DNA of 36,768 nucleotides from an uncultured Bacteroidia bacterium (GTDB lineage Bacteria > Bacteroidota > Bacteroidia > Bacteroidales > F082), in NCBI GenBank assembly GCA_902791165.1, contig CADAVB010000057.1:1-36768 (forward strand). The letters run 5' to 3'. Positions 18,063 to 36,768 of the stretch are shown here, in pieces. Below the pieces are notes generated by a model, which saw only the letters and a program-made list of their open reading frames with translations, ran no database searches and was not told the origin of the DNA. Within the stretch, counting starts at the first letter, position 1. Every line of letters starts with the position of its first letter. Made by a program: the position numbers and the translations under genes.

Positions 18063-18100
18063 CAAATGAAAAAGCCACCAAATGGTGGCTTTTTCATTTG
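18063..18100. terminator. Bidirectional terminator between rocD and dus
   Basis: Perfect 18-bp arms (18063-18080 and 18083-18100) with an AA loop and A5/T5 runs inside the stem. It serves the converging rocD and dus genes and covers the dus stop codon. Confidence 0.9.
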
Positions 18101-19197
18101 AATATGCTCTCCACAGCCTCTTCGTACTCCTTCAAAGCATTAATCTTCTTGATTTTCCGCCAAACCACCTGCGGTTCCTCGAAACTGTTCATCAGATAAG
18201 ACCACAATTCCTTCATGCGACCCAAAACCTTCGGGCTGCCTCCCGCATGGCGAAGGCGGTCTTCGTATAGGTCAATGACATAATCGTGCAGCCGTGCGGT
18301 TTTGTCGTGCGTGGGTGGACACACGCGGTGTGTCCCTACGGTTTTGCCTTGTAGGGACGCATCGAATGCGTCCGTAAAACCGCACGTTTCCGCTATCTCC
18401 TCCGCCAAAAACGGGTTCGTCAGCAATCCCCGCCCCAACATATAGCCATAAAGCCTAGGGGATTGCGGGACGTTGCCCGCAATGATGCTTTTGGGTGACA
18501 TTTCTTCCATTGGTGTCATTGCGGGCTTGACCCGCAATCTCTCACACGATGGGGACTCTATAATGTTTCGAATCCGTTCAAAGCTCTCCACCGAAAAAAT
18601 ATCCCCATTGTAAACCAACGGCGCATTAATATAAGGTATCAGCGCCTTGAAGCGTTCCACGTCGGCCTCGCCTTTGTACAATTGCTTCCCGATGCGCGGG
18701 TGAATAATCAATTCGCTCAATGGGAACTTGTTGAAAATCGGGAGGATGGCTTCGATTTCGTCGGGACTGAAATAACCAAGGCGGCATTTCACACTAAACT
18801 TGATGTCGATGTCCTCAAAGACGCGCTCCAGCATCGTTTCCACCAAATCAGGATAGGGCAGGAGGCCGCAACCGCGTTTCTTGTTGGCCACACGAGGAAA
18901 CGGACAGCCCATGTTGAGGTTGATTTCCTTATAGCCTAACTGCTTGCACTGCTTGGCGAAGCGCAGAATCTCCTCCGCGTCGGTGCTGAGGATTTGCGGC
19001 GTGAGCGTTTCCACGTCGTTGCAGCGCGGGTCGATTTCCTCGCCTTGCAGGTTCTTGGCGTTTTCTTCTTTCTGGATGCCCGTAAAGAAAGGCGTGTAGA
19101 ACTTGTCGATGCCGCCGAAATGCCGCTTGAAAATATTGCGGAAGGGCGCGTCGGTGATGCCTTGGAAGGGTCCTAACGAAAGCAGCATTTCACTCAT
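18094..19197 (-). CDS. dus: tRNA-dihydrouridine synthase with two in-frame insertions
   Basis: The 367-residue FMN-dependent enzyme reduces uridines in the tRNA D-loop. Visible motifs are LGPFQGITDAPFRNI (FMN binding), INLNMGCPFPRVANKKRG (catalytic Cys about residue 100), ELIIHPRIGKQLYKG, PLVYNGDIFS and YMLGRGLLTNPFLAEEI. Relatives run near 310-320 residues. The excess is two low-similarity stretches: ESPSCERLRV through QSPRLYG (DNA about 18461-18539) and CGFTDAFDASLQGKTV through VCPPT (DNA about 18293-18386). Both are encoded by palindromic elements, and both lie outside the catalytic motifs: one between FERIRNII and YMLGRG, the other between FLAEEI and DKTARL. The start ATG overlaps the lnt stop (ATGA), so the two form an operon. 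Confidence 0.92.
   Translation of the reverse strand: MSEMLLSLGPFQGITDAPFRNIFKRHFGGIDKFYTPFFTGIQKEENAKNLQGEEIDPRCNDVETLTPQILSTDAEEILRFAKQCKQLGYKEINLNMGCPFPRVANKKRGCGLLPYPDLVETMLERVFEDIDIKFSVKCRLGYFSPDEIEAILPIFNKFPLSELIIHPRIGKQLYKGEADVERFKALIPYINAPLVYNGDIFSVESFERIRNIIESPSCERLRVKPAMTPMEEMSPKSIIAGNVPQSPRLYGYMLGRGLLTNPFLAEEIAETCGFTDAFDASLQGKTVGTHRVCPPTHDKTARLHDYVIDLYEDRLRHAGGSPKVLGRMKELWSYLMNSFEEPQVVWRKIKKINALKEYEEAVESIFK
18293..18386. repeat. Compound palindromic element inside dus
   Basis: An outer 11-bp inverted repeat (CGTGCGGTTTT at 18293-18303 with 18376-18386) encloses three perfect hairpins: GGACACAC-GCG-GTGTGTCC (18317-18335), GTCCCTAC with GTAGGGAC (18332-18339, 18351-18358) and GGACGCAT-CGA-ATGCGTCC (18355-18373). 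The dus frame stays open through all of it. The last hairpin recurs exactly in the T9SS gene at 34346-34364. Confidence 0.9.
18461..18539. repeat. REP-like inverted doublet inside dus
   Basis: Two hairpins with identical 8-bp arms, ATTGCGGG...CCCGCAAT, at 18462-18483 and 18518-18538. They are in opposite orientation (GATTGCGGG...CAATGA, then TCATTGCGGG...CAATC) and separated by 34 bp. The layout is that of a paired REP element. It is read in frame as an insertion in dus. A diverged relative lies at 32154-32175. Confidence 0.9.
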
Positions 19198-32134: not shown

Positions 32135-32153
32135 ATGATTCCTTTTTCATGGA

Positions 32154-32286
32154 GTCATTGCGGGCTTGATCCGCAAATCGAAGATTAGCTTCGCTGAATG
32201 CGGAGCATTTCAACGTAGTCAATCTCCCAAACAAAAAGGTATCGTCTTCGCGGCTTGGGAGATGGCGGATGTTACTCCGCCATGAC
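32154..32286. repeat. Palindromic element in the tryptophanase leader
   Basis: The ends are GTCATTGCGGG and CCGCCATGAC. Inside are a hairpin TTGCGG...CCGCAA (32158-32176), an 8-bp inverted repeat TCTCCCAA...TTGGGAGA (32223-32262) and a perfect hairpin ATGGCGGA-TGTTAC-TCCGCCAT (32262-32283). The first arm is a diverged copy of the REP unit found in dus (18518-18538). It lies wholly in the predicted untranslated leader. A run of AATCAAC repeats follows at about 32308-32340. Confidence 0.75.
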
Positions 32287-34252: not shown

Positions 34253-36768
34253 TCATTTCACGACAATCTTTTGTGTCTTCACATTGGTGCCGTTGATGAG
34301 GCGCAGCATATACACACCGGCGGTCATGCCGTTGGTGGATATAGCGGACGCATTCGATGCGTCCCTACTGCGGACCACGCGGCCCATCACGTCGATGATT
34401 TGCAGCGTTGCGCCAGCGGTGGCGTCGGTGATGACGAGGTTGCCGGCGGCGTCGATGAAGCCGAAGTTGTCGTCGCCGTTGGAGCCGTTGGCCGAGAACA
34501 CGAGGCGGAAGCGCGAAGCATAGTCAGTGGTGCGGGCATCGAAGGTGTAGCTCGGGGTGGCGAGCAGGTCAACGTCGTTGCCAGTGAGGTTGTCGATGAG
34601 GTGCAGGTAGCCGAAGCTGATGTCTTCGGTGCTGAAGCCGAGCGTGTAGGTGCCGTTCTTCTCCGTCTTGAAGTGGAGCGGCATTTCGCCTTGGGCGTCG
34701 GCATACATCACGCTGTAGTCCTTGCCGTCTTGCGGGAAGAACACGGTGGCGTTGCTGCGGAACAGGTTGAGCTTGCCAAGCTTGTTGCCGTGGCCGAAGC
34801 GCAGGCGGGCCATGTCGATGCGGCTGTTGCCCTTGCGGGTGGCGGCCTCGTTGCTCATCAGGTTCACGTTGAGGATACCGTCGGTGGGTGCGATACTGTT
34901 TTCGCCGGGCACCACGCGGGTGAAGGTGGCCTCTTGGCCTGCTTCAGTGGCGAGGGCGAAGATGCCTTCCATCGGGGCCACGGTGCCATCGGCGGTTACA
35001 AACTCGCCAGCGGCATTGATCTTGTAGTAGTTGAAGGTGGCGGCCGGGTCGGCGGCGTTGCTCACGGTGGCGTTGCACGGGAACGGGTTGCCGATGAGGT
35101 TCCAGCCGGCCCAGTTGGCGTTGCCGCTGTTGTAGTCAAGGCTGATGGCTTTAGGCTCGTGGCTATACATCAAGGCATCCTTGAAGGCGAGGGTGATGGG
35201 GCTTTCCCAGTTGTGGGCGTAGAGGTAGCCTTCGCCGTTGGCGAGTTGGAACTCGTCAATGTTCTCAAGGTTCACCCATTCTTCCTCTTGGCTGTTGTCG
35301 AACTTGTAGAAGTCCACGTTGAAGGTGGCGGGGGCGTTTTCGTACCACAGGGGCAGGGGCAGCAGGTTCTCCACCGCTTCGGCGAACACGGTGGGCTGCA
35401 TGGGCGAGGCAAGGAGGATGTAGTTGTCGATGCCTTCGGCTTCCTCGTAGGGTTCCACCACTTTCTTCATGGTGGCATACACGGCTACGGTGCTGTGGAG
35501 CAGCTGACCGCCGTCCTCGATGGTGATGGTGTTGGTGCCTTCCACGGTGATTTCGGCGGCGAGGGCCACGCAGTCGGCGGGGATGGTGGTGTTGGCGCGG
35601 ATGATGACGTTGTCAGTGATGGCCGGAGCACCGGCGGGAGCCCAGTTGGCACCCTCGTTCCAGTTGCCTTCGGCCACAAACACCTTGGTGCCTTCGGCAA
35701 GGGTGGTGAAGTTCATCAAGCGCGACACCGTGGTCCATGTTGTTGGTGGTTTCTTGCCATTCACCGCCAACATAGGCGCGGGTGGTGATGACAACATTGT
35801 CGATACCAACGGCATAAGAGCTATTACAAGTCCATTGGAAAGCAAGGTAACCATTGTTACTATTAATGGTGGCAATGTCGGCCTCCGTTAAGCTCACATT
35901 AGTTACAGTAGTGGTTTTGGAAAGGGTCAGGTCGTTGAAAGCGGTGAAGGTTGAGCCGCTGGTGTTGCTCGTGCAATAACCTACAGTAAATGTTCCATAA
36001 TTGTCGCTTTCATAAGCATAATCGAACGAAACAGCTTCCAAATCACTGATTTGTGGCAAAATGGCGTAAGAGTTATAAGGAGAATTACCACCTCCAATAA
36101 TGTACAGGAAATTATTGGTACTACCCGAACCGAAGCCCGAGAGTGCATACGAAGATCCCAATGTGCTGTTGTTTGACACGTGACAAATCGGATACATAGT
36201 ACTTGAGGTAAATCCTACCCAACCTTCGGGCAAAGAACCTGCTGTACTATAAGAGGTTGCCGTGTAGGAAGAGAAGTCCTCGGTGGTGGTTTCCGTTTCG
36301 CCGGGTATGAGTTCACGATACTTCACGTTGTAGTTCTCGCTTTCGCCCGTCCAAGTAATCTCGGCACTAACGGCGGTGATGTTATTGGCGGCGAGTTCGG
36401 TGGGGATCATGCAGGCGTGGGCGGTGGTGAAGCTGATTTCGTTGCTCCAGTCGCTATAGTCGGGTTCTTCCATAGTGCCGCAGTTGGTACGCACTTTCAC
36501 TTTATAAGGTGTTTCAGGATTAAGACCTTCCAAGACGAAGTCCACATTGGTGTTGGCTGGCTTGACTTGGTAGGCGGCCGGGGTTGCTGTTTCATCACAA
36601 TATGCCACCTCCCAAGAAGTTTGCGCATCGTCCGTCTTGACCCAGTTGAGCTTCACGGAAGTGGATTTCACCTCGGCATAGGTGAGGTCAACGGGCTTGC
36701 GGCACCCCATCACATAGCTCACCTGAAAGTCGTCGAAGTTCCATGAAGGCGGACTGTAAGTGGAAGGA
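34253..36768 (-). pseudogene. T9SS surface protein with fibronectin type III domains, frame broken
   Basis: The gene enters from the right edge. The first frame (36768 to about 35740) codes for fibronectin type III-like segments (VDLTYAEVKSTSVKLNW, LNPETPYKVKVRTNCG, WSNEISFTTAHAC) and a MAM/cleaved-adhesin-like domain (DFSSYTATSYSTAGSLPEGW to YAVGIDNVVITTRAY). The second frame (about 35740 to 34253) resumes at TWTTVSRLMNFTTLAEG, the end of a fibronectin domain, then a G8/parallel-repeat-like region (WNEGANWAPAGAPAITDNV, ITVEGTNTITIEDGGQL), a long beta-rich part and a T9SS sorting domain (LQIIDVMGRVV to GVYMLRL and QKIVVK). About 35-40 residues of the fibronectin domain seem missing at 35725-35745, together with a frame change. 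The cause may be deletion, decay or assembly collapse. The sorting domain carries a palindrome insertion. Confidence 0.82.
34346..34364. repeat. Palindrome GGACGCATTCGATGCGTCC inside the T9SS sorting domain
   Basis: This perfect 8-bp hairpin with a 3-nt loop is identical (as reverse complement) to 18355-18373 in dus, and the identity extends over the adjoining GTAGGG border. It is read in frame as SRDASNASA between GRVVR and ISTNGMTAGVY, adding about nine residues to a conserved sorting domain. Confidence 0.88.

Follow-up and report, generated by a model that had tools for sequence, protein, structure and literature searches.

REPINs and BIMEs, which go with RAYT transposases, consist of a GTAG tag and a hairpin and occur as inverted pairs. 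REPs are described as mostly extragenic (PMC3733652, PMC12306157), and one account, in the part used here, defines them as seldom overlapping coding regions (PMC12306157). According to the portions of Di Nocera et al. (2013) drawn on here, GTAG and CGTC REPs occur within the open reading frames (ORFs) of several species, and the recB genes of two Xanthomonas species hold different REPs at about the same site; it was proposed that intragenic REPs survive in flexible linkers or loops (PMC3733652). The same source lists Bacteroidetes among the phyla with CGTC repeats and equates the R. conorii elements RPE-4 and RPE-6 with CGTC REPs (PMC3733652). The RPEs are summarized in part of a 2024 review as dispersed palindromes of ~150 bp, in ten families, that lie in frame in protein genes and add a segment to the product (PMC10969869). 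The best-known selfish palindromes that lie in frame are those of Rickettsia; cases in other organisms are scattered. Below, we describe two palindromes that lie in frame in a gene of a 36,768-nucleotide window (the whole stretch of DNA analysed), together with their counterparts in the genus.

The gene, dus, encodes a tRNA-dihydrouridine synthase. Its product matches Pfam Dus with an E-value of 2.5e-32, and the best solved chain by sequence is 6ei9 (DusB), at 4.3e-19. It holds a 79-bp inverted doublet of CGTC-type REPs (E2) and a 94-bp inverted doublet of GTAG-type REPs (E1), at two places that we call site A and site B respectively, and a single ORF of 367 aa stays open through both. The features are as follows.

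18094..19197, minus strand: dus, tRNA-dihydrouridine synthase, 367 aa, with both inserts inside (ORF, Pfam Dus, PDB DusB 6ei9)
18461..18539, no strand: E2, inverted CGTC-type REP doublet, 79 bp, at site A (repeat finding, folding, copies, model)
18518..18538, plus strand: E2 unit 1 (21 nt), ATTGCGGGCTTGACCCGCAAT, identical to other genomic copies (genome pattern search)
18462..18483, minus strand: E2 unit 2 (22 nt), in the opposite orientation and with a different loop (genome pattern search)
18293..18386, no strand: E1, inverted GTAG-type REP doublet in an 11-nt outer palindrome, 94 bp, at site B (repeat finding, folding, copies, model)
18351..18373, plus strand: E1 unit 1, GTAGGGACGCATCGAATGCGTCC, with three exact copies at other places in the genome (genome pattern search)
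18317..18339, minus strand: E1 unit 2, GTAGGGACACACCGCGTGTGTCC, with six exact copies at other places in the genome (genome pattern search)
18063..18100, no strand: perfect inverted repeat of 18 nt around a 2-nt spacer, overlapping the stop of dus where two genes converge (sequence)

A preceding sequence-only reading had placed palindromic blocks of 94 and 79 bp in dus, both read in frame; the coordinates, the sizes and the uninterrupted ORF (18094-19197, minus strand) were all borne out. The outer arms of E1 (18293-18303 and 18376-18386) match perfectly over 11 nt, and between them stand two 23-nt units of the form GTAGGGAC...GTCC in opposite orientations (18317-18339 minus, 18351-18373 plus), as in a GTAG-type inverted doublet; each unit is a GTAG tag plus a 19-nt hairpin, in line with the tag and ~20-nt hairpin of GTAG-type REPs. 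E2 is an inverted pair of ATTGCGGG...CCCGCAAT units, and a 28-nt identical copy of it occurs at C8:50801 in the same genome. CGTC stands before ATTGCGGG in 16 of the 18 other genomic copies listed, and the dus units have TGTC and CATC instead. Judged by sequence, the dus elements fit the GTAG type and, less exactly, the CGTC type. Both blocks fold better than shuffled sequence, with z-scores of -4.2 (plus strand) and -4.6 (minus strand) for E1 and of -9.6 and -6.6 for E2, none of 200 shuffles doing as well on either strand in either case. The predicted peptide segments that they encode include LRVKPAMTPMEEMSPK and TVGTHRVCPPTHDK. The hairpin at the end of dus (18063..18100) is an ordinary terminator-like one, separate from the inserts. 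A structured RNA family was considered and rejected, Rfam at its gathering threshold giving only a tRNA in the window. Elsewhere in the window, a diverged half copy of the E2-type repeat lies at 32150-32176 (93% over 27 nt).

Close relatives that lack the inserts have Dus proteins of ~318 aa against 367 aa here, and the earlier statement that the protein is some 50 residues longer than usual is therefore right. Relative to one of them, L244 (318 aa), the two insert sites are 99 and 63 nt longer, and the remaining small difference, seen as alignment end gaps, lies at the C-terminus, which is shorter in the present protein. It had been proposed that the insertion reading would fall if relatives without palindromes had the same length and residues at these places; they are ~50 aa shorter, and the residues are absent from them. 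One correction concerns E1, all 94 bp of which had been taken as inserted. The left arm and the inner units are indeed new, and the right outer arm is old coding sequence: GACAAAACCGCACG, which encodes DKTAR, is also present in the relative L028. On the dus strand the new left arm is the reverse complement of 11 nt of old dus sequence across the palindrome (18293-18303, 18376-18386), a complementarity that may reflect template switching at the palindrome.

The genome of origin (2.7 Mb in 98 contigs, 98.7% complete) contains both repeats in dispersed form. The pattern of the GTAG unit of E1 occurs at 37 places and that of the CGTC unit of E2 at 18, the two dus units included in each case, compared with one and none for the reversed controls; L156, among the 37, is probably a chance match within a 933-codon frame. 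Exact matches to both E1 units and to one of the E2 units are present at other places in the genome, an identity that suggests spread or conversion in the recent past. The narrower E1 class was found in eight of 149 sampled genomes of the order, the present one included, and the broader GTAG pattern in 82 of 90 genus genomes sampled, often at counts near the control. It should be noted that the motifs were written from the very sequences later scored.

The frequency of inserts was assessed in 85 same-genus dus genes, one per genome and with the present one included, out of 90 genomes (this one and 89 others); four genomes with weak matches only (G019, G037, G079, G080) and one with a fragment (G083) were left out. 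The loci collected at the outset (L019-L047) were the top matches by score, and of the six peptides searched with, two fell inside inserts; because of this bias the 55 remaining same-genus genes were added, and frequencies are taken from the full census. The relatives include Candidatus Alcium sp. F082 (Bacteroidales) and many MAGs, mostly labelled as coming from ruminant guts or from the RUG series. All 85 ORFs reach the conserved C-terminus. A REP motif within two errors is present at site A in 14, at site B in 22 and at either site in 25, which leaves 60 of the 85 without one. When insertions of at least three residues relative to L244 are counted instead, there are 25 at site A and 28 at site B, plus one four codons further on; elsewhere inside dus, scored over the 318 positions of L244 minus the first three residues and the C-terminal tail, there are none. 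The core of dus, 43,254 nt in all over 52 sequences, contains no motif, against 15 rows with one at site A and 23 at site B.

Insert-free Dus proteins, among 74 distinct related sequences, are about 312-333 aa long. In the 52 nearest dus genes an insert-free site A measures 54 nt, and site B without an insert is mostly 75-87 nt long; three sequences that lack a motif have 102 nt there. In a more distant sub-clade site A ranges from 42 to 90 nt, partly by simple-sequence expansion, which accounts for some of the length variation at the sites (L274, L289, L255). What fills the two sites differs between relatives: CGTC doublets, a CCTTCGACAGGCTCAGG family, a CATTGCGAGG...CGAAGCAATC family, palindromes in L125 and L280, and GTAG units that are single or doubled and in both orientations. 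The E1 type recurs in L028 and the E2 type in L019 and L025. The gene presents the arrangement by which an RPE is recognized, an in-frame palindrome in a conserved gene that is absent from some orthologs. Several motif-bearing segments fold no better than their shuffles (site B of L021, z 0.0; site A of L024, z 0.9). In L280, from a distant sub-clade, site A is a perfect palindrome that starts with GTAG and ends with CTAC, GTAGAGACGATG-tgta-CATCGTCTCTAC. We also considered a hairpin conserved by compensation in the ‘RGGAWNAPER’ group (L026, L030, L031, L035, L096); the pattern is suggestive, another REP variant explains it equally well, and we make no claim for it.

On a tree of core codons, from which both sites were left out, the fewest state changes are 14 at site A and 19 at site B, counts that include recombination as change and rest on states assigned partly by eye and on a tree with 26 of its 64 inner branches well supported. 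Individual pairs illustrate the kinds of change. L019 differs from L025 (95% identity) at site B and from L022 (93%) at site A; in the pair L090/L092, ~96% identical gene-wide, site A is replaced; and in the pair L020/L046 (~95%) the latter carries, in frame, only half of an E2-type insert. The pair L036/L091 has ~80% identity over the gene (core) and 97% over ~30 codons centred on site A. Exchange of the sites between species in short tracts is visible here.

An AlphaFold2 model of the present protein, built on an alignment of 34 sequences, has a mean pLDDT of 85.7 and a pTM of 0.84. Two segments fall below a pLDDT of 50, and both are within the inserts.

18472..18534, minus strand: Dus residues 222-242, pLDDT <50, within the E2-encoded segment (AlphaFold2, residues converted to window coordinates)
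18319..18366, minus strand: Dus residues 278-293, pLDDT <50, within the E1-encoded linker (AlphaFold2, residues converted to window coordinates)

No other segment is as low, residues 41-50 having a mean of 61. The low values of the inserts may in part arise because few alignment rows hold those columns. In the model, site A is a turn between a helix and the last barrel strand, and site B is the linker from the barrel to the C-terminal helices. C98, K137, H166 and R168, which we take to have catalytic roles in Dus, are invariant in the 34 aligned sequences, as expected of a functional enzyme with a conserved core, and the inserts lie away from these active-site residues, as had been noted from the sequence.

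Substitution patterns distinguish the inserts from the rest of the gene. For 12 divergent pairs among the 15 of the E2 group, the core has pN of 0.06-0.10 at pS of 0.48-0.74, and the site A segment together with its flanking codons gives pN of 0.15-0.35 and pS of 0.17-0.54; the pair L018/L026, for example, gives a core pS of 0.48 and pN of 0.063, compared with 0.42 and 0.24 in the segment. Segments at site B and those of the second site A family have pN/pS ratios of ~0.1-0.6 in pairs with pS >0.1. On these ratios of core to segment, the enzyme is constrained and the inserts are less so: the core is evidently under strong purifying selection, and the inserts under a weaker, though present, constraint. 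Purifying selection in the core and the intact frames led us to reject a pseudogene.

The same repeats occur in other genes, and a search for further in-frame copies in the genome, also suggested at the outset, was productive. Among 55 repeat copies, 34 lie in mechanically called ORFs, and 14 copies in 10 genes are backed by Pfam, PDB or family alignment as being within real genes. The supported set includes L012, which a greedy choice of ORFs had left outside, and excludes L161 (no Pfam match), L156 and the other in-ORF copies. Its hosts include a DegT-type aminotransferase, an EamA transporter, a GmrSD-like protein and the tails of proteins with T9SS sorting domains, one of which is encoded in the window.

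34346..34368, minus strand: in-frame GTAG REP within the T9SS sorting domain at the C-terminus of a protein predicted to be secreted (genome search, tail alignment)

In the T9SS tails, a GTAG unit is found at one place in five of 14 matches (two of the 14 are cut by contig ends), in both orientations, the copy at 34346-34368 being one of the five. The solved homolog of the aminotransferase, 1o61, lacks a 12-residue stretch at the repeat. The counts for this protein and for the transporter refer to the best 30 sequences by score in each case, the present genome included, and are not genus frequencies: an insert occurs at one place in 18 of the 30 aminotransferases (L049, 1501-1528; orthologs L294-L323), with five inserts elsewhere, and 12 of the 30 transporters (L005; orthologs L324-L353) have an insertion, at the sole place where any occurs. 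A named motif is present in five of these aminotransferases, from two families, two of them carrying the CCTTCGACAGG family in the orientation opposite to that in dus; 23 of the transporters have the GTAG motif within two errors at one place. The repeat places in all three are probably loops, and the single places in the aminotransferase, the transporter and the T9SS tails behave like the dus sites. The GTAG unit has five frames free of stops, and every one of them is seen among the supported coding copies, so selection for one given REP-encoded peptide is unlikely. Separately, at L055 (1304-2728) a CGTC REP lies between the end of a ketoacyl synthase and the apparent start of a following gene that shares its frame; this arrangement is possibly a fusion or a frameshift.

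We consider it very probable that E1 and E2 are copies of dispersed REPs, GTAG-tagged and CGTC-type respectively, inserted in frame into a functional dus at tolerant sites. The observations in its favour are the exact copies elsewhere in the genome, the in-frame position, the relatives free of insertion, the presence of several families at the same two sites, the restriction of low model confidence to the inserts, the weaker selection on them and the exchange of short tracts between species. Mobile REPs, presumably moved by a Y1/HUH (RAYT-like) transposase or something similar, would land widely or at random, and purifying selection would leave only those copies that keep the frame open at tolerant places, which would be the turn that precedes the final strand of the barrel (A) and the linker that joins the barrel to the C-terminal helices (B). 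Surviving copies would then decay slowly and be partly deleted, and old ones would be replaced by new insertions or through short homologous exchange between species, the encoded peptide probably having no specific function. A broader version, which we offer as possible and no better than tentative, is that in this genus at least four palindrome families continually enter fixed tolerant places (two in dus, one each in DegT, EamA and the T9SS tails) and pass between species as recombination cassettes of ~90 nt. If true, repeats would be a continuing supply of new protein segments across the genome in bacteria other than Rickettsia, a supply on which selection possibly draws.

As to the transposase, the genome has a single Y1_Tnp match (L141), which we take to resemble IS200-type transposases. 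A link between this gene and the dus repeats was looked for and not found, and a hairpin finder gave no GTAG-tagged hairpin at its locus. There, the transposase gene (1486-1941) has other palindromes (CCCCGTAGGGG) and GGCAGGCGG repeats nearby, and it is possibly a separate REP-transposase unit. Y1_Tnp matches occur in 65 of the 90 genus genomes, and their counts do not correlate with the GTAG counts across the 90 (rho 0.05, p 0.61). Since three of the 13 Y1_Tnp loci examined (L183, L186, L187) have an adjoining GTAG hairpin, within ~200 nt of the gene, a Y1_Tnp-GTAG association may exist in the genus, but for a class other than that in dus; the dus class was not found with a RAYT next to it.

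Among other explanations, the insert peptides could alter tRNA binding or the regulation of Dus, with selection continually replacing them. The C-terminal helices of Dus have a role in tRNA binding, and in the model site B adjoins them; moreover, pairs of close relatives with ~93-96% identity in the rest of the gene differ at a single site, and there is exchange of short tracts. Such adaptive diversification of loops is nonetheless improbable, in that the peptides vary in family, frame and orientation, the segments have pN below pS (~0.1 to 0.9 of it in pairs with pS >0.1), and unrelated proteins show the same pattern. About equally improbable is a preference of the insertion machinery for these two places in dus as DNA targets, with protein tolerance playing no part. 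The high concentration of insert positions is what such a preference would give, but several repeat families, and elsewhere simple repeats, expand at the same places, and places of this kind exist also in DegT, EamA and the T9SS tails. That the hairpins are removed from the RNA or bypassed by the ribosome, leaving a protein of normal length, has a precedent in the bypassed mitochondrial byp elements and would suit the strong hairpins of the mRNA strand (z -4.6 and -6.6); skipping needs no open frame, yet 85 of 85 frames are open through inserts of many lengths, which makes this very improbable. Assembly error, raised at the outset as grounds for doubt, or faulty binning is scarcely credible: the source genome is a draft of 98 contigs and no second assembly of the same species was found, but many assemblies, from different record series, have related inserts at these sites, L028 sharing the E1 type and L019 and L025 the E2 type.

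Insertion of dispersed REPs at tolerant sites, as the preferred reading, has wider implications. The two places are filled by different repeats in different relatives, which suggests that repeat DNA is continually made into new parts of working proteins. In a gut-associated genus with dozens of sequenced species there is a series of gain, decay, partial copies and exchange, from which it can be tested how non-coding repeats turn into protein and how much an enzyme tolerates. The findings are also a warning to annotators that REP-encoded segments in proteins from MAGs can be real coding sequence.

It remains to compare the dus elements with the systems described at the beginning. With REPINs and BIMEs, E1 shares the GTAG tag and hairpin, the inverted pairs and the identical copies; the difference is that E1 and E2 are inside dus, whereas REPs are, in the portions of the sources used here, mostly extragenic (PMC3733652, PMC12306157). 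The likeness to the Rickettsia elements that the sequence-only reading had drawn holds good for dispersed palindromes that lie in frame in a gene that still looks functional, a comparison of arrangement and not of sequence; RPEs, as summarized in the part of the review cited here, are ~150 bp long, whereas the present units measure 21-23 nt and stand in inverted doublets (PMC10969869). Its suggestion that nothing of the sort was described in Bacteroidetes was too strong as a claim of novelty, because in-frame REPs outside Rickettsia have already been published (PMC3733652). Beyond that report, the open literature, mostly at the level of titles and the openings of abstracts, yielded no account of in-frame REPs in Bacteroidetes genes or in dus, and neither dus nor this clade was found among the intragenic cases in the part of PMC3733652 used here. 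Those intragenic GTAG and CGTC REPs are, on the same portion of the text, among the closest counterparts, being tagged hairpins, often doublets, within ORFs of known proteins (PMC3733652). Compared with them, in the present case one genus carries several families, of both GTAG and CGTC types, at the same two sites in many species, and the inserts also show partial copies and short-tract exchange; as far as our searches show, what is new is this clade and the genus-wide recurrence at fixed sites.
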